A model generated the notes under the pieces. It had not been told where the DNA came from. It saw only the letters and a list, made by a program, of their open reading frames with translations, and ran no database searches. Positions 9,805-56,737 of a stretch of DNA of 64,000 nt are shown piece by piece; positions within the stretch are counted from its first letter, which is position 1; the number at the start of each line of letters is the position of its first letter. The stretch comes from Aquanectria penicillioides. Lineage: Eukaryota; Ascomycota; Sordariomycetes; Hypocreales; Nectriaceae. The stretch is from assembly GCA_003415625.1 (NCBI GenBank), contig PYIU01000005.1, positions 129,001 to 193,000 on the forward strand. The letters are read 5' to 3'. The translations under genes and the position numbers were made by a program.

Positions 9805-11810
9805 CTATTTCACAATGATTCTCACACGCCCGATGTTCATCACCTTGGCAAACAAACTGCCAGCCTTTCCCTCACGATGTGCAGTGACTCTAATTCCTGC
9901 AAAATACGTCCCTGGTTCCTCGTATACGTAGCTAGCATTGAGCTCTAGAGAGTTTGACGGGCCCTCAAAGTCCATAACCGTATAGCTTCCATTGCCCAAG
10001 TAATCCCATTCGACAGCCACTATCTTGCCAGCATCTGGTGCGGCTTCGATAGATGCACTCAAGTTAATTTGCTGGCCCCTCGAAACTATAACAGGAGTTT
10101 CTGGGCTGTTTCCATTAACTGTGAGTCGTACAGTAGGCTGAATACCTTGACGCTTTGCAGCCGGCTCTGGCACTTGGATTTGACTATTCGATACATGATA
10201 CCTTGTCGAAAGAGGGGGAGCAATTCCCTCTTCTACCCACTGGCCGAGGTCTCGTAGAGCCTGTTGATAGATGCCATTGTAGTCGACAAGGTAAGAGGCA
10301 CGTATTCCCTCGGGAGTTTCCTCGTTGTGGTCGGCATGGTCGTTGTACCAGATTCGATACTTGTCATCGAACTTCTCCCCTGTAGAGTTCTGGACCATGC
10401 TTCGATACCAATCAGAATGCCAAGGAAAGGCATCGCTATCCCAAAGATTATCGACCACAATCATTTTCCCCTGGAAATTGCCAGTTGGCGTACCGCCTCC
10501 CCTGGTGGCCTCCGCGACCAGAGCCGATACTTCAACGCTTCGCTGAGGGTACAATGGCTGTCCGTCACTTTTCCGGAATTGATCGAAGCCATAGAAGCCA
10601 GATAGTGATGGAAGGCGATAGCGATAGTAGGCTAAGAGCGCTATGAAACAATGGTTGTCGATCTTGACCTTGCCCCCTTCAGCAAGCGCGTCAAGTGTTG
10701 TCTGGTCATTACCCTCGCTGAGGACAAATGCTCTCAGGGTCTGGTTTAACGACCCTGTGAGTGGCTGGGCCAACATGGTTCCGTTTGATAGGTACACGGA
10801 CACTACAAATCCACGCGAGTCCCTTGACACTGGAAAATCTCTAAAGGAGAGAGATTTTGGCGTCCCATCATCACCGCGGCCAACTGAAGTGATAATGGTG
10901 TGGACATCAATGACAACCGAACGGACGATATCGCCAAGTTCAGATTCCTCCGAGCCCAAGTAACCTGGCGCGTTCCAGAAATCTTCACAATAGTCGGGGT
11001 CCAAGCCGTATACAGTAGATGTCAACACGTCTAGTGTCCTGGTATCAGCTACCTTGTCGAAGTCTTCCCACTTATGGAGAGGTATTCCCATTAAGGTTGC
11101 CTCGCGAAGCATTGACTTTCCCACCTCATTGAGATGCGCAAATGGGTTTCCATCGCCTCCAGGCCGCACCGAATCAATGATTTCAGAAGATTGGTTGCGT
11201 AGAACGAGGCCTGCGAAGGCTCGCACAGCGGGGACATTCGGGATGGAGACGGGAACGGCTTGTACGAAAGTCACGGCGCCGTCCCAGACACCATTGGTAT
11301 TCTCCATTGCACCAACAGTTTGGTATGATCCTCCACTCCCACCGTAGATGAAGCCATAGATCTCATTCTGTTGACTGTAATACTGGATTGCAATCATCTT
11401 GGAGAGCTTAGCAGCTGCTGCGAATGCCCGGTAGCCACTTGTCCCTGTAGTTTGGACAGTATAGGCGCCACTCTCGGCCCCAAAAGCTATAGTGCTGTCG
11501 CTCGCCTCCGCCTCCTGTGTTGGGTAAAATCGTTGATAAAACCTTCCCCCCAAAGAGACTTCTGGGGCAAGTAAAAATTAAAAGTGACGCTCGTGTTTTT
11601 GAAGTATCCAGAGACTCTTCGATGAGACACCGGGGCCGTCTCGTCAGACTCCCTAACAATAACAGGGTCATTGTAGAGAGCATCAACGCAATCCGCCGTG
11701 ATTTGGACTGGGCCGTCGGCTGTCGATGCCACACATTCTGACGACAAGACTGGCACAAGGTTGTGCCACGTAGCAAGTAAAATTGCTAGGAGACGGTGGC
11801 AGTTCTTCAT
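9805..11810 (-). pseudogene. Secreted alpha/beta hydrolase with PKD-like tail, one frameshift
   Basis: Reading starts at 11810 with a signal peptide (Met, Lys, then LLAILLATW, cleavage near SSE). The first frame runs to FYLPQKSLWG, then the continuation (RFYQRFYPTQ and onward) lies in another frame that is open to 9805. The switch is at a run of six G on the coding strand (plus 11546-11551); one more G restores the frame, and no intron of plausible size does. The body has a nucleophile-elbow motif GGSGGS and a DHADHNEE segment that could hold the catalytic His; overall it resembles secreted tannase/esterase-like hydrolases. The last 110 residues look like a PKD/Ig-like beta-sandwich (VEWDYLGNGSYT, then YEEPGTYFAGIRVTA). 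It may be a true pseudogene or a sequencing error in an intact gene. Function beyond hydrolase is not known. Confidence 0.65.
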
Positions 11811-22890: not shown

Positions 22891-23890
22891 TGTTATGTTA
22901 GATGAGAAGGGTAAATTCCAATGGCTTGCTTTGCTTTCTTGAATATCGTATCATCCAAGAAAGAGCCCTCTATATATGTACCGGTCTCTAACACGGCAAC
23001 ATATTCCGCCACGGGCTTGGCCCAGACCATTCATGCCCCACACCCCGCGTTTGCTAGCGATAGGAAGAATGTGGGGATGCAAACACGCGTCTGGGGTATT
23101 GCAAGGATATCACATTGGCCTCCGCTTCACCAGTCCCCGCTCTCAGCCTGGTAGCTCGTGGCATTAGTCTAGCCAGATCTGCGATTCCGTGCTGAGTCGT
23201 AGGATCTGAGTCAGAATGGCAAACCTGCCTTCAAATGAAGGCCGTGGAGGCGTTGTACACGGCGCCCTTCACTAGTAAACCGCACCATTACACCATACCA
23301 CATCAGAGCAGCCAGGCTGGCAATCAATGCTGTGCCTTCTCACTAGATACGGGGCTTATGAATTAGCCAATGGTGATGTAGGATTGCTCATTGCAAAGCA
23401 TGTGGGTTCAAATATTGATCAGAATCATGGTAAAGCTTTATCAAACAAAATTACGTAGGACCATTATACCAGATATTCTTCATCCCATGTCTGAGTATTA
23501 TCTTGTATGGTGCTGTGTTGCGGTACGGAACCAATCACTCAACCATTGATATTCCCACACCTCAAGACTTCAACATTTTCCGGGCTTACCATGTCCCTTC
23601 CAAAATGGTACTCCCAAATTTAGCCGGCATGGCTTGCTCGGATTGTGCGAGTTAATTTTAAAATGCGTGGGCCGAGGTTGCGTGGCTTTGATCTGCCACG
23701 GCCTGATAGTTTCAGGCGGGGGGCTGCTTGGCACTAGTCCATCTACTTGCTCTGAAGAGATGTTATTGGCATCCTCTTCTTGTTCATCTAAGCGTTGAAC
23801 CAACTTTCCGCTTCCATATTGATACAATCAGAAAATATTTCACCAACTTTAGTCATATTTGTGATCGCCTTGTGCTTCAGCCCCATCGCA
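22891..23890. other. Divergent promoter region
   Basis: Lies between the DAL5-like gene (minus) and the intronless GH3 gene (plus). TATATATG at about 22970 is a plausible TATA box for the permease. No other feature seen. Confidence 0.35.
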
Positions 23891-26128
23891 ATGTCTGAAT
23901 ACAGCCCTGAAGCAGTCTCAGACACCCCCAATATACTACGGCAGAATTTGGACTTTCATGGCGCTGTTAAAGCAGTCCAGAACGGCGAATTGAATTTCGA
24001 CTCCGCCTCTCAGGCTTTATTCTCGCAGCTCACTCTTCAGGAGCAGCTATGGCTCCTTGACGGCGACGAGCCATTTTGGCCCGGCCTATATTCCCTGACA
24101 ACGAAAGGGTTTAACCATACACCTTATGTGAATGGAGAAATTAAAAGACTCAACATTCCGGGGATTCGATTCAGCGACGGCCCTCGAGGCTGCGTCATGG
24201 GAAACTCAACAGCATTTCCAGTTCCTATGGCTCGTGGAGCCACTTGGGATACCTCCCTGGAGGAGCGGATTGGCAGGGCCATTGGACGAGAATGCAAAGC
24301 ACAAGGGGCAAATCTATTTGGCGGCATTTGCATCAACCTTCCAAGGCACCCAGCTTGGGGACGTATCCAAGAGACTTACGCCGATGACCCGATTATCCTG
24401 GGGGAGATGGGTGCGGCTGTCACTAGGGGTGTACAGAGTGTCATGGCTACCGTCAAGCACTTCGCTCTCAACTCCATGGAAAACGCGCGATTCAAGGTCG
24501 ATGTTCAGGTTGACGAAGATGTGTTGCATGAGGTTTACCTCGCCCATTTTCGCCGTGTTATCGAAGACGGCGTTGCTGTTGTCATGTCTGCATATAATTC
24601 TGTTCGAGGAGAATTCGCTGGTGAAAACAAGGACCTCCTCATGGATATCCTTCGGAGGCAGTGGGGCTTCAATGGCTTCGTTATTAACGACTTCCTTTTC
24701 GGATTCCGTGATGTGGCTCTCTCTCTCAAAAGCGGTCTCGATCTTGAAGCACCTTTCCGCCAGCAACGGGCCATGTATCTTGAAACACTACTTGAGCAGG
24801 ACAAGGTTTCCTTCTCAGATGTTGAAAGAGCAGGCCTTGCCATTTTAAGGCGTCAAATAGAAAATCAGGTTCTCCGAGGTGATAGGGGGGCTGCGATTGA
24901 TGTTGTGTTCTGCACCGAGCATCGACAACTCGCCAAAGAGGCTGCTGCCAAAGCAATGGTGCTTCTCAAGAACGACAAGGTTGAAGGAATACCTCTCCTT
25001 CCACTTCACGAGCTGTCTAGGATAGCGGTTGTGGGACGTCTAGCGGACTCAGTCAGTACTGGAGATAAGGGATCTTCTCAAGTGCGTTGCCCCGAGGTAA
25101 CCTCAACATATCAAGGTATCAGGGCAGCTTTCCCTGGGGCAATAGTGGAGCTTGATAGTACGGAAAGTATTGAACATATCAAGGCTGCTGCATTATCAGC
25201 GGAGGTGGTAGTTGTCGTTGTGGGATACACCTTCTTGGAAGAAGGAGAGTGTACGGCACCGGCTTTCAATGGAACCCCTGGCCTGCGGTCAGTGATTCCA
25301 CCTAGCGATGGTTCAAGGGAAGCAGAATCTGTGATCGAGAGATTGATGAATCCAAAGCCCACAAATGAAGAAAAAGGAAAAGACAACTACGGATTTGGTA
25401 TTGGGGGAGATCGTTCAAGCCTTCGACTCCGGCCTCAAGATGTCGACGCAATCAAGGCTGCAACAGAAGTGAACCCCCGGGTTGTTGTATCTATAATTGC
25501 CGGCGGCGCAGTCATAATTGAAGAATGGAAGCAGATGCCATCTGCAATTATTTTCAGCTGGTATTCAGGATGCGAGGGAGGCCATGCTCTGGCTTCTCTT
25601 CTACGAGGACAGGAGAACTTTGCTGGTCGGCTCCCTTTTTCGATCCCGACGACGGAAGAGCATCTTCCACATTTTGGCAAAGATGCAGAGAAAGCCGTCT
25701 ACGATCAATGGTTTGGCCAGCGAAGACTCGACCATTTGGGCGTTAGAGCTGCTTATCCTCTGGGTTTTGGCCTCTCATATACGAAGTTTGCATTATCAAA
25801 CATGAAGGTCACTCGCTGTGAGGAGCGTGACGATGAGTTAATCGTGAGTGTAGAGGCTACAAATGTCGGTGCGTGCGCAGGCCGCTATATTATCCAAGTA
25901 TATGGAGTCGTCGAGGTGGAAGGCTGGCCAAAGCGAAGTCTGCTTGGCTTTCAGCCGGCAGATATTGATCAGAGTGGGAGGGAGACTGTTCAAATAAAGG
26001 TTTCAACCAGGCCACTGCAGACTTGGCACCGGGGAGCTTGGAAACTTGTGTCTGGGACTGTTGGTCTCGAAGCGGGTAGCTTTTCAGGAGACCCTGAGAG
26101 TGTAAGAATTACATATATTATTCAATGA
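23891..26128 (+). CDS. GH3 beta-glucosidase-like enzyme, intronless
   Basis: A single open frame; 745 residues from the ATG at 23891, or 777 from an in-frame ATG at 23795 that would add a hydrophobic stretch (LVIFVIALCFSPIA) resembling a signal anchor. It has the GH3 barrel with FSDGPRG near the start, KHFALNSMENAR, and the predicted nucleophile Asp267 in GFVINDFLFG, where most family members have SDW. The second domain has VVVVGYTFLEEGE and GGDRSSLRLR, and the C-terminus has FGFGLSYTKF and a fibronectin-III-like domain. There is no PA14 insert, unlike the GH3 gene at 4102. The lack of introns and the NDF variant set it apart from the first GH3, so a bacterial-like origin is possible but unproven. 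Sugar specificity is unknown. Confidence 0.85.
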   Translation: MSEYSPEAVSDTPNILRQNLDFHGAVKAVQNGELNFDSASQALFSQLTLQEQLWLLDGDEPFWPGLYSLTTKGFNHTPYVNGEIKRLNIPGIRFSDGPRGCVMGNSTAFPVPMARGATWDTSLEERIGRAIGRECKAQGANLFGGICINLPRHPAWGRIQETYADDPIILGEMGAAVTRGVQSVMATVKHFALNSMENARFKVDVQVDEDVLHEVYLAHFRRVIEDGVAVVMSAYNSVRGEFAGENKDLLMDILRRQWGFNGFVINDFLFGFRDVALSLKSGLDLEAPFRQQRAMYLETLLEQDKVSFSDVERAGLAILRRQIENQVLRGDRGAAIDVVFCTEHRQLAKEAAAKAMVLLKNDKVEGIPLLPLHELSRIAVVGRLADSVSTGDKGSSQVRCPEVTSTYQGIRAAFPGAIVELDSTESIEHIKAAALSAEVVVVVVGYTFLEEGECTAPAFNGTPGLRSVIPPSDGSREAESVIERLMNPKPTNEEKGKDNYGFGIGGDRSSLRLRPQDVDAIKAATEVNPRVVVSIIAGGAVIIEEWKQMPSAIIFSWYSGCEGGHALASLLRGQENFAGRLPFSIPTTEEHLPHFGKDAEKAVYDQWFGQRRLDHLGVRAAYPLGFGLSYTKFALSNMKVTRCEERDDELIVSVEATNVGACAGRYIIQVYGVVEVEGWPKRSLLGFQPADIDQSGRETVQIKVSTRPLQTWHRGAWKLVSGTVGLEAGSFSGDPESVRITYIIQ

Positions 26129-41828: not shown

Positions 41829-44319
41829 GCAGGGGCAATTTTTTTTGGGACACATCACAAGAATTGGTATAGGGTAACTAACTAGGCTAAAACGGTGTGA
41901 TCACCGATGGCGATGGTGTTGTGGCTGATTCCCGAGACAAATGATAAGATCGGGCCGAATAAAAAGTCGGGTGGCTTGCTATCAGACAACATCTACAAAA
42001 TACTGCACATCAGGATGAATATTCCATCGTTTCAGTCACTCTTTACAGCATTTCTTTTTAGTCGATGGCAGATTGATCCCGGCTTCAACATCACGGCGGC
42101 CATTATGTCAAGCCCATTTCCTTTTTCCTTCTTCTAACTTGTTGTCACAATCCACACCATGATTTCACCAGCCATTAATGAATGCAGATCTTCCTTTAGG
42201 ATTAGATAGGTCCAGGTGAAGCCACCCTCCCATCCACTCCACACCAGCAGCAGGCCCCATTCACTTTGTTTTTCTCCTCCCAAGACCTAGAGGGGTCTAA
42301 ATCCAGGCGCCCGAGTGCTCCTTGTAAGGTAGGCCAGGAAACCTGTTGAAAGTATAGAATCTAAAGTACCACTTGTTTTCGGCAAGGGGATAACTCCAGT
42401 TGTTGCTGAGGTGCTATGGTTCAATAAAACCTGCGTGGTCAGGAGTCGCTAGGAACAGGCAAAGGGACAGGCACCGAATGTTTATGCTTTTGTGGCGCCT
42501 GGCGCCAGTTCAACGTGCACAGACTCTCTTTTCCTGGTATGGTCCGGTTTTGGAGACGGTTTTTTCGTCTTGACAGATGAATACGAAGGACACTAAAATA
42601 AAGTCAAAGGAAAACTGAGCTGGGGAAAGGCTAGATACGGGGTGCCTGTGCCATTGGGATTCTGCTGGCGAGTTCTGGGTGATTTTGCACACGACTCTAA
42701 AATAGCTCATGGCAATTTTCACTCCTTCTCCATAGCCAATTATTGCGAATTTCGCAAAGTCCAGATCCAGGTACGCGTTGCCTTTGACGAGCTGAGAAAG
42801 CTGGGTATCGTGGCGGGGCTTGAGCCTAGACGGGACTAACCTGAGGGATGTCTCGGCTCCGACGAGAAACGGCCGTACCTACATAGAGGGGTGGTGTATC
42901 GCCTTGCAACGGGCACAATGTCCCCAATGGGACAAGTCGTGCCTTGTCACTTCGGTAGCCGCCATGGCGAACCAGGTTTGGCCCCATCCCCTTCGCCAAG
43001 GGAATGACGAGGTGGCGGGCATCCAATTTGGGTCCCAAAACGTGGCATTGTGCCCGTTGTCAGGCCCGTGCATCGAGATCCGTGATTTCCGTGTATCCGG
43101 AACAATAACACGCAGAGAGGAGACTGGGCAAGCAGCACACACACAAACGTCAAGTTCGGGCGGGCATGGCCCGGATGCTACGTCGACCCCAGAGCACGAT
43201 CCCGTTTCGATCCCGTTGCGTTGAGAGTGACCCCATCTCAACTGTTGCACGTCAAAGTTGCCGCTGCTTGCTGCTACGTAGTTCGTGATTTTACCCCTGA
43301 CGTCAGGCAACCTGCTGGTCAAGCGGTGTCGCCATAATTTAGCTCCCATGACTCAATTTGCTCTGCAATTAGACACGGTATGATCCCAATGAGCGATACG
43401 GTGGCGCCACAGCGGCTCTGCAGCCCCCAAACGTCTCTGGCTCCCCAAGATAGGGACAACGTGCCGGCGGGTCCAGCACGGTCTAGATCATTAGGCGGGC
43501 TCTTTTCGGCAGTGGAAAGCCTTCGCTAAATGCACAGGTCGGCCAACTTCAGTAGTTGCGTGGAGTCGCGTCCCGATGTGGGCGTAGCGTTTGCTTGGGA
43601 AAAGCTTGTTGACATCCCATGGAGGCTTGACCTGAGCGCTCCCCAAGTAACGGCCGGCGATGGGATTGGTGGAAAAGTTTTCCCGTCCCCTTGGAATCGA
43701 GCTACCCTCAGGGTAGCTGAATGGGCTTCATCATCACTGCGGGAGACGCTGGCTAGAGCTGATGGTCTCAATCTGCTTTGGCTAACGCTGTGGCCGGATG
43801 ACAAGCGGGCCTGCCGTCTGCCGGAACTTTCGGAGGCCAACCAACTGGGAGAGAGGGAGAGGATAGGGAGGCCTACCAGCCAAGTGCGTTCACTCGGGTA
43901 TCTTGATGATCCTCCAACTGGGATCCCCGAGCATGGGACCTGGTGGGGGGAAGCCTGACAATATCAATAGTCTGAATCGCCTGGACTGGTCCAGAGCCCA
44001 TTGTCCCCAAGGCCGCGTCGACATGTCGACTACCCCATAGCGTCCTCTCGGAGCATGGCCCAACCTGGTAACAGTGAGCATGTTGCGTCCTTATGACACG
44101 ATGGGGGTTGCGCATCCTTTCTTTATTAATCCGGCACCCCGGCTTTCACCTGGAGCTTGAGCGGGTTTTGGTTATCGTTCTGTCTCCGCCTACATTGTAG
44201 CCCTAACAGATCGACACAGGGGAGGAATATACTTGTATTCGGGCTTTCTTCGAACTCCCATATCCGGTCCCTTCTCTCTCACCACGGCACAGTGATTGAG
44301 ACGTCAGGACTGGAGAACA
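41829..44319. other. Gene-free 2.5 kb upstream of the giant esterase gene
   Basis: Frames at 42820-43224 and 43526-43958 occur on both strands at once in a locally GC-richer part and have no recognisable domain. No promoter motif stands out. It is the likely regulatory region of the pectin methylesterase gene. Confidence 0.4.
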
Positions 44320-47300
44320 ATGGCCAAACTATCGCCATGGTTGCTCCTCGCCCTCTGCGGCTGGAGCGCTGTCAACGCCCAAAAAGGTTCGGTAGTCACT
44401 CCTTCTCCCCGTCAGAAAATCGCTGCTTGTCGTGCCAAGAAACCCGCCACTCCTTCATCTTTGATTTCTGTTGAATCTTCAACTCCCGCTTCGCTGTCTC
44501 TCGTTCAAGACAATTCCACCCCTTTGACTCCCCAGGAACTGGCCTCCTCCAGCACTTCCACTCCTTACGTGTTTGTTTCCACGAGCACAACCCCAAGTGT
44601 CAACACAGATGCTACCCCAACTTGGACCCCGAATGGGACCCCGAATGGGACTCCTGGCGATAGTGTGACCCAGACTTCCCCAGAGGCCCAAATCACCCCA
44701 ACGATCCAGACCCCAGGCATCCAGACTCCAGGCATCCAGACTCCTCCAGCAGCAAACTCCCAGACTCCTTTAGGAACTCCATCCCAAGTAGTCCTATCCA
44801 CTTCTTCAACTCCTGTCAACGGAGAATACCCCAGTGTCAAGAGCGATGATGCCTCGCAATCTGACAGCCTGAATACGCCAACGACCCCTGGGTTGATGTC
44901 GTATTCGGCTACCACGACGCCATTGTCCCTGTATACGAAAGATGTACCTGGAACGCCCGCGGAACTGGATATCGCTACCACCACCCCCACCACCACCTCC
45001 TTCACCCCAACAAAGCAGCAGACAGAACTTTCATCCACGTCGTCTCGCACGAGTACTAACAAGGCTGCAGTTGTTACGGTTGCCCCTGATGGAACTGGAG
45101 ATTACACGGCCATCGCATCCGCCATCTCCTACGCTCAGGCCAACGCGGTACCTACCGTCAGCGTCCTTGCCGGAACTTACACGGAAGTCATCTCTGTACA
45201 AGCTACCGCTGCGGTTACGATTGTTGGACAGACGACCTCGAACACCACCAAGCGAGACACCGATTCATGGAGCTCTAACAAGGTCACCATCACAAACGGC
45301 GGCAGCACCTCTCGACCCCTTACCATCCCAGCCAACGCCAAGGGAATCACGTGGCGAAACATCAACTTCATCAACTCCAACTCAGCTTCGACCACCGGTG
45401 TTGTGTCGCTTCAGGGAACCCAGAACGCCTTTTATGGATGCAGCTTCGTTTCCGCTGGTTCAGTAGGCTTCACCGGATCTCTGGCTTCTGGTATCATCGC
45501 CAATTCGTACATTGAGGCGCTCGACAAGGCCTTCTCTTCGTACCCTTCGCTATACATCTATGGCTCGACTATCACTGTCACAAACAACAATGGTCTGTTG
45601 GTTTACACAAAGGGCTACACGTACTCAACTACTAACATTCTCTACAACTCGACGACTGTCCTGGATACCTGTAAGGTTATTCAAAAGGACGGCACCTCCA
45701 CCAAGAATGTCTTTCTAGCTGCCGCGAACGCCGCAGGTTCAGTTGCTCTTTTCCGAGACACCACGTTGCCCTCGTTTATTGCTGCCTCTGGTGTCCACAT
45801 TGATACCCTCACCCAGGGTCCGAATACCCAGTACCTGGAATTTGGCACCAGCGGCCCTGGAAGCTATGCGCAAAACGCTGCTTATCGAGCAAACGTTACA
45901 TTGGTCACCAACGTTGCTAACCTTGCTCCTTATGACATCTCGCAATTCTACAGCACGCTTTACCCTTCGGTTTCTGTTTCGAACGTGGATTGGGTTGACT
46001 CCTCTGTCCTTGCCGCTATCAAGGCGAGCAACAGCGCAGATGTCTCTGTTGCGTCCACTACTTCGTCGACTACCTCTGCTGCTACCTCGTCAACCTCTTC
46101 CTCGGTCTCTTCAAGCTCTGTTGTGTCTTCCACGTTGTCGACGACTTCTGGTGGAACCACCAGCCAGACTGTTTCATCGACCCAGTCATCCATTGGAAGC
46201 TCTTCCGAGAACATTGGAAACTCCACGGCCACGACCCCTACCAGCTCGGTTGCATCTACCACTTCTATGACCTCTGTCAGCACCTCGATAATACCTTCTG
46301 CGTCATGCTTGCCATCCTTGATGCCCAGTACTGCCCTAATTGTCGGCCCAGCAAGCAATAGCTGTGCCCAGTACACGAGCATCAGTGCTGCTATTGCTGC
46401 GCTGCCCGCTGACTCGACCACCCAATACATTTACATCTTGGCTGGAACATACAATGAGCAGCCCGCCGTGACCCGAGTTGGTGCCGTCATCATGCGCGGT
46501 GAGACTTCTGATACCACCTCGTCTTCATCCAACAAGGTCATAATCCAGAACTCCAACGGTCGACTCTCGAGTGCGGGAAGCTCCAGCACAACCGCTACAT
46601 ACAGTGCCAACAAGTACGAGACGAAGCTCATGTCCTTCTACAACATCAACTTTGTCAACTCCTTCAGCGCCCAGACCAACTACGTTGCGCTCGCAGTATA
46701 CGCCAAGGGCCAGAAGGTGGCGTTTTACGGCTGCAACATCATCTCCTCTCAGGGAACGCTGTACCTCGATTACGGCAATGTATACTTCAGTGGAGGTCGC
46801 ATTGAGGGTACAACTGACTTTGTCTGGGGCCAGGGAGCTGGTTACATTCACAACTCCATCATTGTGACTGATGGCACTACGACTGGCCAGTCAATTGCCG
46901 CCCAAAAGTACCAGAACTCGTATGGAGGCTCTCGATTTGTCTTCAACCAGTGCGCCGTCGTTCCTCAGAGCAGCGCTCTTGCTCAGAAGAGCACCTATCT
47001 GGGCAGAGACTACTCTACCAACGCCAGCGTCGCTTTTGTTAACTCCTACCTGGACGCCCACATTGCGTCCGCTGGTTGGTTGGTGAGCAGCACCTCGACC
47101 TTCACCGGTGGTTTTATCGAGGCGAACAACACTGGTCCTGGATCTGATACTTCTGCTCGTGCATCCAATGCTCAGATCCTCAGTGACAGCTCTAGCTATA
47201 CCGTCAAGAACATCCTTGGCGACGATAGCTGGCTAGACTCTTCCGCCATTGCCCCCTTCTCCGGATGGCCCGATTCTGTCTACTCCATCACCACCACCAC

Positions 47301-50300
47301 TTCCGCTGCCACAGTGTCTGCTACTGGTACGGCTTCAACAACCCCCACGGCTTCGACGACCTCAGTAGGATCTACCTTCACCGTAGCTCCAACCCCCACC
47401 GCCGGCCAGTACGGAACAGTCGCCTCTGCTATCGCTGCTCTGCCCAGCGATGGAAAGGACTACACCATCTACATCCTGGCTGGTACCTATGAGGAGCAGC
47501 TTTCTCTAACTCGACGAGGAAAAGTGACCCTTAGGGGAGAGACCTCGTTTGCCAATGATTTCACTGGCAACACCGTATTGATCAAGTTCAGCGATGGCGT
47601 TTCCACCAGTGCAGGACAGGACGAGGAGACCCCTGTCATCAACTGGAAGAACACCAACAGCGAAGGCCTGGCGTTGTACAACATCAACTTCACCAACACC
47701 TTCCCCCAAACTACCAACTATGCCGCGTTGGCTGCCGACTTCTACGGTAACAACATGGCTGCGTATGGATGCGCTTTCAAGGGCTTCCAGGACAGTCTGC
47801 TTGTCAACCAGGGTGTCCAGGTTTTCAGTAACTCGTACATTGAGGGCAGTGTGGATTTCATCTGGGGCTACAGCAAGGCCTATTTCCACCAGTGTTGGGT
47901 TGCGTCCAACACAGCCGGGGCATGCATCACGGCCCAGAACCGACCTTCGTCAACCTGGGCCGGAGGTTTCGTGTTTGACAACTCCGTCATCACATACACC
48001 AGCAACTACGGAAGCACATATGGAAACACGTACCTGGGTCGACCCTGGTCCCAGTACGCCATTGCTGTTTACAAGAACTCGTATCTTGACAAGCACATTG
48101 CTGCAGCCGGATGGAACACCTGGTCAACCAGTGACCCCAGAACTACCGTAAGTCGAGCCACCATCACTAGCTCTGAATATTTCTAACGTACCTAGAATGT
48201 CTTGTTCGGAGAGTACAACAACACTGGTCCCGGTAACTGGACCTCCTCTCGTGCTAGCTTCGCTACCAGCCTCACCGACTCCCAAGTCGCGGCGTACTCG
48301 TTGTCGACCTTCATCGGCAGCACTAGCTGGCTGGACATGACCGCCTACAACTATGTCCCCAGTTACAGCTTAACTCAGGCTTCGCAAGCAACGGCAACTA
48401 CCAACACCACTGACGCTAAGTGGGCGCATCCTACCAGCGGAACTGTGCCCCCATCGGGTGCTGTTCTCGTTTCCGTCAATGCAAGCATCTCGGGATCCTA
48501 CAGCAGCCTGACCAGCGCTCTTGCTAGCCTCCCATCAGACTCCACCACCCAGATCGTCTTCATGTACCCTGGTACGTACGAGGAGCAGGTACCTGTCATC
48601 AACCGCAGCGGCCCTGTCATGATCATCGGTTACACTGATGCTGCTCCCGGAAAGTCTTATGCCTCGAACCAGGTCATCATCACTCAGTCTCGTGGCTTGT
48701 CGGTCAGCCCTCTGCCTACTGGACACAGCAACGCTGAGACTGCCACCATCCAGACTGCCAGCACCAAGATTGCCATGTACAACGTGAACATTATCAACTC
48801 CGCCAATCTGGATGGTTCCCAGTCCAGCTACGTAACCCTGGCCGCCAGCATCTACGGCAACAAGATAGGATTTTACGGATGTTCCTTCATCGGATGGCAG
48901 GACACTCTTCTCACTGGTGCGACCGCCGGTTACCAGTACTACGAGAGCTCCTACATTGAAGGCGCCATCGACTTCATTTGGGGTTACTCCAAGGCTTACT
49001 TCAAGGGATGCACCATCGGTGCCAAGCGCAAGTCATCTGCCATTACGGCTCAGAGCCGTGCCAGCTCGTCCGCCGTCGGCGGTTACATCTTTGACCAGTG
49101 TCTCTTCACTGCAGCAGCTGCTGCTACAGTCGACCTGACTGATGCCGTGTACCTGGGCCGTCCTTACTCCAAGTACGCCCTGGTTGTTATCAAGAACAGT
49201 TATCTCGATAGCGTTATCCAGCCTGCTGGATGGAAGGTTTGGTCTACCACGGACCCCAGGACAGATGCCATCACCTTTGCCGAATACAACAATGATGGTC
49301 CTGGCAACTGGGGCAACAACACTGCTGCTCGACAAGGATTTGGCTATGCCACTCTCCTCACGACCGACACGTATCCCCTGACAACTGTCATGGACAGCAC
49401 CGACTGGATTGATATGACCTACTGGGATCAGATCTCAACTCCCCAGCCGGCCACAATCACTACGCCCGTCACCAACACCACCACTGCCTACAATGGCACT
49501 GCTCCTCCTAGTGGTGCCCTCATTGTTTCCAAGACTGCCATTGAAGGAAAGACCTTCTACAACACCATCCAGGCCGCCCTCAACGCTCTCCCCGCCTCAA
49601 GCTCAGTCACCGGTACCATTTTCATTTACCCTGGAACCTACAATGAGCAGCTTGTCCTCAACAAGTCTGGCACTACCATTTTCCTTGGCTACTCCGCTTC
49701 TCCCAAGGACTACACCAAGAACCAGGTCATCATCACTTACAACGCTGGAGTCGACACCCAGTCCGATGCTTCCAACTCTGACTCTGCAACAGTTTATGCT
49801 ACTGGGAACTACTTCCAGGCCGTTAACATCAACTTTGCCAATACCTATGGAACCGCTTCAAACTACGCGTCATTGGGCTTTGCCGTCAGGAGCAGCAAGT
49901 ATGCCGGTCTGTATGGTTGCCAGGTCTACGGTAACCAGGATGCCCTCTTGATCAACGGTTATCTTTTCTCGTCCAACTCATACGTCGAGGGTAACATTGA
50001 TATGATTTGGGGATCTGGTGCTGGATACTTCCTCAACACCACTATCGCCACCAACCGGGACGGCATCTCCTTGACTGCCGACAAGCGTGCTACCAACACC
50101 ACGGCTGCTGGTTTCGTCTTTGATCAATGCACCATCACGGCGGCCAACGGTGCCTCCTACTCCTCCGTCTCCCTGGGTCGGCCCTGGAACCAGTACGCCC
50201 GTGTTGCCTATATCAAGAGCTACCTCGGTTCTCTCATCGAAGCAAGCGGTTGGGATTCATGGACCAGCTCTGATCCTCGCACATCCGGTGTCACCTTCGG

Positions 50301-51870
50301 AGAGTTGGCAAACACCGGCCCTGGAGCTTCCACTGGAAAGCGAGCCTCCTTCGCGACCCAGCTCTCGGTTAGCGATGCGGTCCAATTCCAGCTGTCATCC
50401 TTCTTTGCCAACACCGCTTGGATCAACAGCACTTTCGTCTATGCTACGCCATTTATTGCCTCAACCATCACTCCTGTTTCAACTGCGGTTGCCACTGCTA
50501 CCTCGACCACCACGGCCTCGTCCACCACGGCCTCGTCCACCTCCACCCTTCCTGCGAGCACAACTGTTGTCACTAGCACCATTTACACTACCAGCATCTC
50601 AACTTTCAAGGAGACTCTTTACACTACCACTACTGGTGCTCTCCAGACGACGACCATCCAGAGCACTTCAACCGTCAACATCGGAACCACGATCACCCCT
50701 GATCCGGTTACAACCACGACCGTTCAGAAGAGCACTACCACTCTTATTCAGACCGTTCAAGAACCGGACCAGCTTGTAACTCAGACCACCACCGAGACCC
50801 TTGATGTTGGAACCACCATTACTCCCAGCCCCAAGACTGAGACTTCGTGGAAGACGACCCAAATCCTCACCACAACTTACCTTGACGTGGCTGGCAAGGC
50901 CACCACCATCAAGACGACCGTTTCGGCAACTGTCTACGCTGCGAGCACTCCCAAGCCGACGACGACTACCCAGGTCATCAGTAGCACCGTCTACAGCACC
51001 AAAACCTCGTCTCCCAAGGCATCCACTGTCAAGAGCACCACAACCGTGACCGCCGGAACTGGAGGAGTCACCACGGTATCTGCCAAGGCAACAACCACCT
51101 ACCAGACCCAGTACACCACCTCGACCAAGGTTACATCAAAGACGACGACGCTTTCTTGTATTCCTGCCAACGGTGCCAAGAAACGCTCCGTGGACGACAT
51201 TCCGGAGCCTACCGCTCAACCTGACACTGGCTTGGTGGCTCGCGCCATCACAGTACAGAAGGTCACTATCACTGTCACTTCAGTCTTCACCACAGATGTC
51301 AAGACTTCGACCGTTTCCATCCCTGGATCTACCCAGACAACTGAGGTGATTGTCACCAAGACCACTGGCAAGGTGAGCACGCTCAAGGCGGCTACCAGCA
51401 CTATCACCAGTGTGTCGCTGGTTTCCAAGTACCAGACCACTACTCTCTCCGGCTCGACTTCCACCACGACCATCACTTCTACCAAGACGACTGGCAAGAC
51501 AACAACCTTGAAGCAATCGACCGTGGTCCTCAGCTCGACTGCCAGCTCCACTAAGACGATCACTTCAACCATCACAGAGCCCGGCGTGACTGTCGTCTCC
51601 ACGTCTACGAACACCCGCACAATCACGACTGTTCTACCCCAAAGCACCGCTGTTGTTACCCAATCCAAGGTGACTACGTCTGTTACGACCACGACTCTCC
51701 CCGCCAGCACTGTGACCAGCTGGGCGACTGTGAAGACCACTCTGAAGCCCAGCAGCACCGTTACCGAGCAATCTACTATCACCAAGACGACCACGGTCAA
51801 GGTCGGTCAGACCACAACGACCTGGGTCACTCGTACGGCCAAGAGTGCAAAGGCATGTGAGACGGCGTAA
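44320..51870 (+). CDS. Giant secreted five-domain pectin methylesterase
   Basis: Two exons, 44320-48147 and 48196-51870, give exactly 2,500 residues; the 48-nt intron falls inside the third domain. Order: signal peptide (LSPWLLLALCGWSAVNA), a Ser/Thr/Pro-rich linker to about residue 248 with small repeats (NGTPNGTPG, PGIQTPGIQTP), then five CE8-type right-handed beta-helix domains at about 249-568, 672-983, 1021-1324, 1366-1689 and 1717-2028, joined by Ser/Thr-rich linkers, and a Ser/Thr stalk to the end. CE8 enzymes remove methyl esters from pectin. Domains 3, 4 and 5 keep the catalytic pairs: Asp1158 and Asp1179, Asp1512 and Asp1535, Asp1858 and Asp1878, and the LGRPW/LGRPY arginine motif. 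Domain 2 has Gly812 for the first Asp but keeps Asp833; domain 1 has lost both motifs. A possible Kex2 site (KKR, ending residue 2273) lies in the stalk. No GPI signal is evident. Usual fungal family members have one domain and about 330 residues. Codon use is strongly biased to C-ending codons, a sign of high expression. Confidence 0.9.
50461..51867 (+). repeat. Ser/Thr-rich stalk-coding repeats
   Basis: Residues about 2031-2500 are mostly Thr, Ser, Val and Lys in imperfect repeats such as TSTIYTTS, GTTITP, TTTLKQSTVV and TKTTGKVST. This would be heavily O-glycosylated and extended, like mucin-type stalks of wall-associated fungal proteins. Confidence 0.75.
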
Positions 51871-52072
51871 GGCGTGAGGTCATGATGAACTCAGTTGAGA
51901 CAATGGCGTTAATTTGGTGAGGGGGGAGCGGAGTGATTTCACTGACACTCTATTTCTTGTAATTTATTTAATAATACATAAACCTTTCTTTCTCAGTTGC
52001 GTGTCCAATATAGTATAAAACAACTCTCAGAGTAAGTGAATTAGCGGGTCCGCGATCCGTGGAGTCTAAGAA
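51871..52072. other. Short convergent intergenic region
   Basis: Between the pectin methylesterase stop and the stop of the MFS gene. It contains AT-rich 3'-end signals (AATAATACATAAA at about 51970). Confidence 0.4.
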
Positions 52073-53706
52073 TTAGAACTCCACTGAAAAGTATGTTCTC
52101 AGCCTCTCTCCGTAACGATAAAACAGCCAAGGCACTGGAGTGAATGCAAAGCAAATAAATCCCAAGACAGAATTGCCCCATCCCAATCCCAACCTAGTAT
52201 ACAACGGATCGGCTGTCAGATCGAGAAAGGCGCCGAATGGAGAACGCACGAGCATATTTGCTGCCAGTGCTGAGGCCGCCGCTTCTGCCCCAAAGGCATC
52301 GACGAGATACACCTGACCTGGCACAATGACGAACAGAGTACCAAAACCAATAATGAACGTCCCTATAATCGGGACAATCCAGTGTGTATGGTAATAAGCA
52401 CTCCAGCCATACAAGAAACAGCCAAGGGGAGCGATGGGCCCGATCCACTTCATTAGAAGAAGACGCTGCTCTGGCTTGGCTGGGCCATCCACTTCTGTTT
52501 GTTTTAGAAGCTTGTCACTCAAGACGGCGAACACCATCAATCCACAGACCATTCCAAAGCCAAGACCAAGGTAAGCGAGGCCAGAGATACCTGGGCTGAA
52601 ACCGTAGACACCTTGAAAAATGGTTGGGAAGGTTGTAAAGAGCAAGAAGATGAGCCCAAATAGAATTCCAGTATAGAAGGACATGAGAAGAACTATAGGG
52701 GAGAATATCAGCAACTTGAATGGCCGCACAATGGCTCGAAGGAGCATCTGGCGTGCAGTCTCGTTTTTCAGAACCTTGGGGCTGAGGTTTTCGTTTCCAG
52801 TCTCTTTGCGCAACCGCTGGGTTTTATGCTGCAGGACAATGGTGGCGTTTGTTTCCTGCATAAATAAAAAAGTAAAGATGCTGAGAATTCCGGACTTGAT
52901 AGAAAAATGTTAGAGGGGCATATGAAGACAAGCGGTTGAGTCTAACCAAAATTAAAATGATTCGAAAGGTCCAACGCCAACCGAGCTTTTCCGAGACAAA
53001 GCCCCCGACAATGGGCCCAATAACCTGTAGCTTGTTAGACAATCAGGGGGGAGGGAGCGGGGTTGAGAGAAGAGTCATATACCGGCCCCAATATCGGGCC
53101 CATAGCGAATGAAGCCATGGCTTTTCCTCGTTTTTCTTGGGGGGTGATATCGGCGATGGTTCCCCTCCAACAGTCATAGGACCAGAAGCAGCAGAGCCGG
53201 CAATGAATCGAAAAACGAGAAACATTGCAGTGTTTGTGCTAAAAGCGCATCCGAGCGTGAATGCAAAGTACATGGTGGTGCAGACGTAGTATAGTAAAAG
53301 GCGGCCATATAGCTCGGACAAGGGGGCGAGGATGAGCGGTCCTAGAGCGAAACCGAGCACATATAAACTGACTGTCATAGCCTCGAGGGTGGAATTGGTA
53401 ATATTAAATTCGGTAGCGAGCTCTTGGGCACCGGGTGCGAACATGGTTGCGGCCAAGTTTCTAAACCAGTCAAGATCAGGTTCCCGCCAACACGATGAGG
53501 AGGAGGGAGTTTCACGCCACCAACGTCAAGAGACTAACAATGGCCACATGTAGGCTCTTTTTCGAGTTTGCCCAGTTCAAGGGGTTGTCAGGGTCATCGG
53601 GGCCATCCCATTCCACAATGTTGGGGTCCATGTTCAAATGGTCGCTGGTAGTTCCCGTTGAGGAAAAGAGCTTTTCAGCCGGCTCTAGCTGAGAATCCGG
53701 AGACAT
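52073..53706 (-). pseudogene. DHA1-type multidrug MFS permease with one frameshift
   Basis: Exons: 53516-53706, 53083-53460, 52947-53024 and 52073-52894; with one added base it would give 489 residues. It has the signatures of the drug:H+ antiporter-1 family: [12 protein letters not shown] at the start, FAPGAQELA, LGPLILAPLSELYGR, FRFIAGSAASGPMTVGG, EKRGKAMASFAMGPILGP, and GPIVGGFVSEKLGWRWTF. After TVGG the conserved continuation GTIADITPQ is in another frame; the lost base maps to the four-G run (plus 53162-53165). No intron explains it. It may be a real decay event or a sequence error. It is divergent from the third Zn2Cys6 gene (500 bases). Confidence 0.72.
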
Positions 53707-54205: not shown

Positions 54206-56737
54206 ATGTCCACAAACGATGACCAGAGCCCTACAGAAAGGGGACCTGGCAAAACCCCACGGGGACGAGCACGCCTACCATCGAGCAGGCGACGGGACAA
54301 GCCGCAGCTGTCTTGTAATCTTTGCCGCCGTATGAAGTAAGTATTTAATATGTATAATATTGATGGTCAGGATATTATTGGCTGCCGAGGCCCCCTAGCA
54401 TTCTCCTCCTCTGACTGCCTTAGACTGCGATGCAATCGACAACACCCCTGCAGCAACTGTGCCTCGCGAAGTCTAGGATCGTCCTGTTCATATGCTCCCA
54501 GCTCAGTGCGCTCGAATGATGGGTCAAAGAGGCCTACAGCTGCCATACAGGAACGCGTTGAGCAACTCGAGGGGCTCTTGGTGGATTTGATGCATAGAAC
54601 GTCGGCAAAGCAACCAGTTCAAGGTCCAAAAGCCACCCTTCCCAAGAGCTTGGCTACATCCTCAAGCAACAGCGACGTGCTTCACCATACCCCATCGACT
54701 CCCGACAAAAGAAGTGTGAAACTGAACGAGTCTGGTACAAGCTATGTTGGCAGTGCCCATTGGGCTGCCATTTTTGACGGCATCGCGGACATCAAGGAGC
54801 ATTTTGAAGTTGAACGAGAGCAGCAAGAGAGTCTCGACTGTTCAGAGCCTCCACATACTAACTGGCCGGGACCCCAATTGTTGTATGGTTGCCATAGGTT
54901 CATGACCAAGCAAGAAATTATTGAATCAATACCCTCACGCCCGGTAGTCGATCGCTTAATCTCCCGTTACTTCAACTCGTTTGAAATTTCACCAGGCAAG
55001 TCGTCACAAGTCCTGAGACTCTTTTTCAATGTATTGACTTGCTGCAGCCATTATTCATAGCGTACAGTTCTTGAATGAGGTATGTTAGACGCCATTGACA
55101 AAAAGCTCGACTATTGCTCACACTCGTCAGTACGAAGAATTTTGGGAGAACCCATCATCCACTCCGGTGATATGGATTGGGCTCCTATTCAGCATGATGT
55201 GCCTCGCAACTCATTTTCGGAAATTCAAATTGAATCCTGGTATTCCAGATCTTGGAACCGCCGCGATGGAGCAAGATCTTGACATAATGCTCGAAAATTT
55301 CAAACGCATGACCGTTCAATGCCTAATCCTAGGGAATTATGCTCAGGGAGGCCCCTACGTGCTGGAAACTCTCATAAGCTACGGTGCCTCTGAGACTTAC
55401 AGCAGAAACGATGCTGAGATTGGCATTTGGATTCTTCTTGGCACCACTGTACAACTGGCGATGCACATGGGCTACCATCGAGACCCGAAACACTTCAAAG
55501 AGATGACTCCATTTACAAGCGAGATGAGGAGGCGAGTGTGGATAAGCATAGTCGAAATGGATATTGGAATTTCTGCACAGATGGGATTGCCAAGGCTTAT
55601 CAAAGAATGGCAAAGCGACACGAAAGAGCCATCAAATCATCAAGATGTTGATTTCGGCAAAAATACAGTGGAGATGCCCCAACCAAGGCCTGAAACAGAC
55701 TTGACGCCAATGGTGTACAGACTTGCAAAGGCCAGGCTAATGAAAGTATTTGGGATCATATGGGACGTTGCAGCAGATTCCCGGATATACAACTACTCTG
55801 ACGTGATGAGGATGGACAAGAAGCTCCAGGAGGCACGTGCGGCTATACCAGCGTGTCTCAAATGGCATTCGATAGCCCGGTGTATCACGGACTCGCCTCA
55901 AATAATCGTCCAGAAACTTTTCCTCGATGTTCTTTTCCACCAGGCAACGATTGTGCTGCATAGGAGATACCTATGTTGTGCGTCAATCGAATCTCCGTAC
56001 CACAATTCTCAACAGGCATGCCTCAGCTCCGCACTCAAACTACTTGAACACCAACACACAATTCAAGAAGAAACGCAGCCATTCTGTCAATTATATCAAG
56101 AGAGGTGGAGAATTTCGTCGGTCATTACTCATGACTTTCTCCTGGCGACCAGCATTCTCTGTCTGTACCTGCAGCACACCACCAAGTATCATCGAGTCAC
56201 TGAAGCGGCACATATTCAAAAAATTCGAGCGGCTCTCAAAAGGTCCTATGGCATATGGATGGATTCAAGCAACTCCTCCAAGGAGGCATGGAAAGCCGCT
56301 AAAGGTTTAAGTGTGATTCTTGAGAAATATGATGCTGCCGGTGCTAATGAAAATGCGCCACTCGAGCAGCCGTTGCAAACTATTGGTGAGGATTTCGGCG
56401 ATATAAGACAAGACAATGGTGAGTGAGCGACCGCTAATGAAGAGACAATATCAGAGGACATTGTTATTCGAGTCTAATTTGTGCGAGGTTAGGCAATCCC
56501 GCTAGCTTCGGCGTCCGGTTTTCCGGCTTTGATGAGCTGGGATTGACGAACTGGGCGACGTCAATTAGCGACCCGGAGGGTTCCTTTGGCGCTTCGATAC
56601 GGGGCGGCAGTGGTGATTGGGGAAACCTAGATGGTGAGAAATATATGATCTTTCGAAGAAAGGATACTACTCGCTAACATAGCCTGGAAGCAACCACGGA
56701 GGTTGGCTCCTCACAGTGGCCTTGGAACTTGAATTGA
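54206..56737 (+). CDS. Zn2Cys6 transcription factor (third)
   Basis: Six exons: 54206-54336, 54424-54995, 55048-55079, 55131-56418, 56493-56633 and 56691-56737, 736 residues. The first intron splits the zinc cluster; joined it reads [21 protein letters not shown] then SSC (CX2CX6CX5CX2CX8C), the Gal4 type. A coiled-coil-like dimerisation region ([15 protein letters not shown]) follows, then the fungal-specific TF domain with [20 protein letters not shown] and [13 protein letters not shown]. Intron 2 begins with GC in an ideal context (CCAG then gcaagt) and is the only way to reach the 32-nt exon [10 protein letters not shown]. The last acceptor was chosen to give [14 protein letters not shown] at the end; an alternative 8 bases earlier would end at 56732. 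It may control the divergent drug-type permease. Confidence 0.85.

Follow-up and report, generated by a model that had tools for sequence, protein, structure and literature searches.

A conserved fungal protein with five tandem CE8 domains, two of them lacking part or all of the catalytic set, in Aquanectria penicillioides

In a 64,000-nucleotide stretch of the Aquanectria penicillioides genome (the window: bases 129001-193000 of contig 9, in an assembly of 13 contigs and 53.8 Mb), a single gene encodes a predicted protein of 2,500 residues in which five domains of the CE8 family, here called D1 to D5, stand in tandem ahead of a long Thr/Ser-rich tail. Alignment with homologues shows that D3, D4 and D5 nearly always keep four catalytic residues, whereas D2 has lost one of the four and D1 has lost all of them. 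Judging from the predicted sequence, we propose that the product is probably a secreted, multivalent pectin methylesterase (PME): three catalytic domains and two retired ones, the latter likely to bind pectin, carried together on a Thr-rich tail. To our knowledge, fungal PMEs have been studied as single-domain enzymes.

Gene model and domain layout

Spliced together, the two exons (44320..48147 and 48196..51870; open frames of 1,276 and 1,224 codons) give 2,500 codons with one terminal stop and none internal, in agreement with a preliminary description of this stretch, which had read the gene as two exons free of stops and frameshifts. The intron between them (48148..48195) has GT-AG borders and contains a CTAAC element as well as a stop in frame, and the exon join restores ...WSTSDPRTTNVLFGEYNNTGPGN... 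in the protein. Homologues were sought with residues 660-2030 as the query (E up to 0.001), the 7,987 candidates that shared most words with it being scored; 298 database proteins match, and unless stated otherwise the counts given below refer to the best 120 of these, which are 55-82% identical to the query. Over the junction (residues 1266-1290) the protein alignment has no insertion in 119 of the 120 homologues and no gap in 119 of the 120, and the predicted exon join is supported because the homologues are collinear there. Every one of the 120 holds four or five domains, and their order is constant throughout. Comparison with homologues thus confirms that the gene is real, encoding one long CE8 protein as the preliminary description had held, and not a set of separate genes or a merge.

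The PF01095 (CE8) search that the same description had proposed as a check finds five stretches over the Pfam cut-off of 27 bits: D1 with 36 bits, D2 with 102, D3 with 123 (for its exon-1 part), D4 with 152 and D5 with 142. The D1 match is weak and covers profile positions 2-124 of 298. A beta-helix fold like that of solved PMEs was found. The five domains share 23-45% identity with one another, which points to an old duplication and not to recent tandem DNA; a tandem repeat finder applied to 43000-53000 returned only four short arrays, with periods of 12-15. Ahead of D1, residues 21-248 form a second Ser/Thr/Pro-rich stretch (50% Ser, Thr and Pro) that the preliminary description had omitted. 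Coordinates are collected in Table 1.

Catalytic residues and the C-terminal tail

The window protein was aligned with the 120 homologues, the Aspergillus niger PME structure 5C1C serving as guide, and five columns were followed: Q113, Q135, D136, D157 and R225, in what we take to be the numbering of carrot PME. A set of 18 representatives below 80% identity removes most of the bias towards Fusarium. In D3, D4 and D5 of the window protein, Q135, D136, D157 and R225 are all present, and the twelve residues are all kept in 116 of the 120 homologues (of the other four, two have a gap in D5, one has an Ala and one a Cys) and in 18 of 18 representatives. PMC12109409 assigns a catalytic set of Asp, Asp and Arg to PmeC5 of Butyrivibrio fibrisolvens.

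In D2 the acid/base column, D136, holds Gly in the window protein and in all 107 homologues that fill it (17 of 17 representatives, missing rows here and below being gaps), and the residue after the catalytic Arg is Asp, as LGRDY, in all 107 that fill that column. These two changes, in the active-site region 46750..47013, occur together in 106 of the 106 homologues that fill both columns, a pairing that makes a moved acid/base possible. The nucleophile Asp of D2 is kept in 105 of 107 homologues, its Arg in 106 of 107 and its Gln135 in 104 of 107. In D1 the whole site is gone: an ungapped alignment places G380, S381, K403 and A468 at the four positions, and the nucleophile column holds Lys in all 109 homologues that fill it (11 are gapped) and in 15 of 15 representatives. 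The gapped alignment of HMMER, shifted by one residue, brings D402 to the nucleophile column, with the other three positions still lost; the ungapped alignment is preferred, though not proven, because the spacing between the flanking strands is equal in D1 and D3. Five esterase domains, as the preliminary description counted them, therefore hold good as five CE8 stretches, of which D3 to D5 have the full set; that all five are esterases is rejected for D1, given the loss of its site, and is doubtful for D2, which lacks the acid/base Asp.

The tail had been described as a 470-residue, mucin-like Ser/Thr stalk. Its make-up agrees with this (47% Ser plus Thr over residues 2031-2500), but the picture is too simple, as a dibasic site and two cysteines are conserved in the tail. 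Among the 114 homologue tails of at least 350 residues (6 of the 120 are shorter and were left out), 106 have exactly two cysteines, seven have one and one has four; in 103 of those 106 the first Cys is part of C-x-P, and all 106 have the second no more than five residues from the C-terminus. K-R or R-R follows a Cys within 15 residues in 101 of 114 tails, against 3.5% of shuffled tails (scored with a slightly narrower pattern), and K-R or R-R occurs elsewhere in 58 of 114. The 18 representatives include 17 with two cysteines and 15 with the dibasic site, and their tails have a mean pairwise identity of 0.39, compared with 0.50-0.73 for the domains. Three other views of the tail were rejected. 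A stalk anchored by glycosylphosphatidylinositol (GPI) would call for a GPI-like end, and by a crude hydropathy test (mean above 1.0 over the last 15 residues) such an end is found in none of the 114 homologue tails; the end of the window protein, AKSAKACETA, is not hydrophobic. A folded beta-solenoid, suggested by a T-x-T-x pattern, is not supported by the model, which has a predicted local distance difference test score (pLDDT) of about 25 over the tail. A module common to other proteins of the genome was sought among 22 scored candidates, and the sole match, in a search weakened by simple repeats, was the gene itself.

Table 1. Features of the five-domain gene and other features of the window (domain limits placed by eye)
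Feature	Position in window	Strand	Remarks
Exon 1	44320..48147	+	residues 1-1276
Intron	48148..48195	+	48 nt, GTAAGT...CTAAC...TAG; junction collinear in homologues
Exon 2	48196..51870	+	residues 1277-2500 and stop
Likely secretion signal	44320..44379	+	residues 1-20 (MAKLSPWLLLALCGWSAVNA); make-up judged by eye
N-terminal Ser/Thr/Pro-rich linker	44380..45063	+	residues 21-248; poorly conserved
D1, degenerate CE8 beta-helix	45064..46044	+	residues 249-575; without active site, K403 at nucleophile column
D2, CE8	46309..47259	+	residues 664-980; Gly812 for acid/base Asp, LGRDY for LGRPW
D3, CE8	47371..48357	+	residues 1018-1330; spans intron; Q1157, D1158, D1179, R1241
D4, CE8	48457..49437	+	residues 1364-1690; Q1511, D1512, D1535, R1598; most conserved domain
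D5, CE8	49516..50457	+	residues 1717-2030; Q1857, D1858, D1878, R1938
C-terminal Thr/Ser-rich tail	50458..51867	+	residues 2031-2500 (470 residues)
Conserved mid-tail Cys and dibasic (Kex2-like) site	51157..51186	+	C2264-I-P ... K2272-R2273
Conserved Cys near C-terminus	51856..51858	+	C2497
Major facilitator transporter	52073..53456	-	in two frames; adjoins gene
Fungal-specific transcription factor frame	55095..56426	+	adjoins gene
GH3 glycoside hydrolase	23795..26128	+	about 18 kb upstream of gene
Frame with PKD domain	9805..11553	-	582 residues

Distribution and age of the five-domain layout

The order D1-D2-D3-D4-D5 is found in 99 of the 120 homologues, and in three more that are identical except that one domain is in two pieces, giving a total of 102 five-domain proteins of 1,482-2,742 residues, some with a cut domain; orthologues of similar length, which the preliminary description had suggested seeking, do therefore exist. 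They include entries of Dactylonectria, Fusarium, Verticillium and Aspergillus, identified by database names only. Nearest among the matches listed is a protein of Thelonectria (82% identity; Nectriaceae), with those of Dactylonectria and Neonectria, presumably of the same family, at 80%. Dothideomycetes, Leotiomycetes, Eurotiomycetes and Sordariomycetes are all represented among the matches (as judged from five species looked up), and many matches are named 'pectinesterase' or 'pectin lyase fold/virulence factor'.

Of the 96 rows in a maximum-likelihood tree, 78 are domains taken from 16 of the 120 homologues (among them five-domain proteins of all four classes), five are those of the window protein and 13 are other sequences; the root of the tree as printed is a midpoint and carries no evidence. 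Each domain forms a clade of its own (support 100/100 for D1, D3, D4 and D5, and 99/99 for D2), and D3 and D4 are sisters (97/91). P0159, a metagenome fragment that runs from the last part of D4 through most of D5, groups inside D5. The other 12 sequences (single-domain fungal proteins, two from plants and one from a bacterium) are set apart together by a branch (99/95); if the root falls among them, D1 to D5 are of single origin. Because every domain keeps its own clade across four classes of Pezizomycotina, the five-domain layout looks ancient. Two placements depart from clean vertical descent. In D1, D2 and D3, Didymosphaeria P0070, which we take to be a dothideomycete, clusters with Pleurostoma P0041, which we take to be a sordariomycete; in D3 and D4, Cytospora P0119 (Sordariomycetes) falls outside the remaining proteins. 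Transfer or old paralogues may account for these placements.

A search for stand-alone D1 gave 13 matches, ten of them solely from jgi, ena or lgn sources. The best, Hte_006786 of Hypoxylon texense, is probably one part of a split gene model, because its locus number adjoins that of Hte_006787, a homologue without D1 (P0005). Two other named records among the matches are from Lasiodiplodia theobromae (P0218, 517 residues) and Penicillium rolfsii (P0225, 300 residues); the latter has a signal-like start and ends just after D1, and from these ends D1 may exist as a stand-alone protein elsewhere. For D4 alone, the best full-length matches recorded under a fungal species name are 41-46% identical and come from species that we assume to be basidiomycetes. 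Thirteen metagenome proteins of 416-561 residues (P0121-P0133) share 72-87% identity with D4, and seven bear the name 'pectin methylesterase-like acyl-CoA thioesterase'; all thirteen probably derive from fragments of this fungal gene to which bacterial gene finders had been applied. In the A. penicillioides genome itself, other CE8 matches lie in about six places on contigs 13, 10, 1, 9 and 6 (loci L001, L002, L003 and L008, and two without a locus); Gln113 is apparently absent from L008.

Proposed function and alternatives

We hypothesize that D3, D4 and D5 remove methyl esters from homogalacturonan, and that D1 and D2, once esterases, have kept their hold on the chain and now serve to bind pectin. 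Five grooves in a row would then allow repeated capture of one pectin molecule, since a protein with several sites would be more likely to make its next attack on a molecule that it has already engaged. According to PMC3913658, fungal PMEs do not act processively; non-processive units of this type could thereby demethylate in runs, or the enzyme could stay on the wall. The tail, probably O-glycosylated, might keep the heads off the hypha, and a Kex2-like cut after the mid-tail K-R might leave two pieces, possibly joined by a disulfide between C2264 and C2497. A more far-reaching version can be offered only tentatively and is doubtful as a whole: in an ancient multivalent PME, duplication within one gene would have yielded three esterases and two pseudoesterases that serve as pectin-reading modules, the non-processive units together forming a processive machine with a Kex2-cut, disulfide-held tail. 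In such a machine D1 could bind the carboxylate made by D3 to D5 through the Lys in its nucleophile column, and D2 may hold the ester without turnover.

Several observations weigh against a pectin methylesterase with three active and two binding domains. Gln113, which lies on the oxyanion side of the CE8 site, is replaced in D2 to D5 (by N, G or S in D2, N, D or S in D3, S or N in D4 and N or D in D5, rarely by E or K), and Gln occurs at this column of D2 to D5 in none of the 120 homologues (the D1 column is unsure); the single-domain paralogues L001-L003 of the same genome have kept it. With Gln113 replaced, D3 to D5 are not standard PMEs, and their activity is likely rather than certain. Gln113 is not strictly defining, however, to judge from PmeC5, which is presented as a PME and has Arg206 in place of Gln153 (PMC12109409). 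D1 and D2 evolve faster than D3 to D5 (mean pairwise identity among the 18 representatives 0.50 and 0.59, against 0.65-0.73), so that weaker constraint on them is possible. In the gene models as deposited, D2 is absent from 12 of the 120 homologues and D1 from 6, although some of these absences may be artefacts of the models: Aspergillus ochraceoroseus has one protein with D2 (P0078) and one without it and with a clean join (P0120). The difference may be a true deletion or an intron predicted in the gene model; 12 is accordingly an upper bound for the loss of D2, and of the six proteins without D1 two are marked 'partial' (P0001 and P0030) and P0005 is the probable split model. P0225, found with D1 alone, has by eye an Asp and not a Lys at the nucleophile column, and the low pLDDT of the tail gives the proposed stalk no confident fold.

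Some of the same observations would suit a protein that is mainly an adhesin, with CE8 domains on a glycosylated stalk that fix hyphae to plant pectin and do little catalysis; two domains without the catalytic set, the replacement of Gln113 in D2 to D5 and the Thr/Ser tail all fit this idea. Awp1-type adhesins of Candida glabrata are likewise fungal surface proteins that join a pectate-lyase-like beta-helix head to a Ser/Thr-rich region, but they are GPI-anchored and have an alpha-crystallin domain, not CE8 (PMC8746771). Since Q135, D136, D157 and R225 are fixed in D3 to D5, which binding alone would not need, and no GPI-like end was found by the crude test in any of the 114 tails, we consider an adhesin unlikely. 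It is unlikely, too, that D2 is still an enzyme with altered chemistry, the Asp of LGRDY having replaced the lost acid/base, which would give the protein four active heads that differ in preference. In favour of this, D2 keeps nucleophile, Arg and Gln135 more faithfully than a dead domain would need to, and its two changes are paired in all 106 homologues that fill both columns; yet the sequences and literature covered include no CE8 enzyme built in this way, and an Asp that replaces Pro beside the Arg would not have to face the site.

That the product is a polyprotein, cut after secretion into single-domain esterases, is improbable. In its favour, D1 is preceded by a long linker, another separates it from D2, and the tail has a conserved dibasic site, but the inter-domain linkers of the window protein hold no K-R or R-R (dibasic sites only being considered), and free heads would not require a conserved domain order. 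An artefact, in which single-domain genes were merged by misassembly or misannotation, is extremely improbable: no supporting point was found, the two long open frames lie in an assembly of 13 contigs, and the 120 best homologues with their constant order, together with the collinear junction, rule out both a misassembly and separate genes. A secreted pectin methylesterase with three catalytic and two probably pectin-binding domains remains the reading that we favour.

Among known systems, the PME of Aspergillus niger (PDB 5C1C/5C1E, CE8) is a single domain of 299 residues with Gln113, whereas the window protein has five domains, of which D2 to D5 are without Gln113 and two are without the catalytic set. 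The predicted model of the window protein is matched by structure 3GRH of Escherichia coli YbhC, whose PME site we take to be changed. YbhC has the CE8 fold and is labelled an acyl-CoA thioester hydrolase, but differs in being a single-domain bacterial protein and, by a cited title, an outer-membrane lipoprotein (PMC12109409). PmeC5 and other large rumen PMEs are, like the window protein, large and built of several domains (about 2,000-2,200 residues), they are secreted, as the window protein probably is, and the Gln153 equivalent is changed in PmeC5 too; they differ in being bacterial and in combining PME with PL9 lyase and wall-binding domains, and no tandem array of CE8 is described for them in the part of PMC12109409 available. 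Nor does a tandem CE8 protein appear in the accessible parts of PMC12316961, PMC12109409, PMC3913658, PMC10530356, PMC8746771, PMC4890743, PMC3542576 and PMC5683368, and a fungal five-CE8 layout with two retired domains was not found in the open-access literature, most subscription papers lying outside this scope. The CE8 family and the large multidomain PMEs of the rumen are thus known; the conserved fungal array of five CE8 domains is little described.

For these fungi, counts of CE8 genes understate the number of CE8 domains, and the automatic name 'pectinesterase' masks parts of the protein that are without the catalytic set. Present in four classes of Pezizomycotina, and with two domains that appear to have lost catalysis at constant positions, the five-domain form would offer a natural test of how an esterase turns into a binding module, and the array would likewise test whether multivalency can replace processivity.

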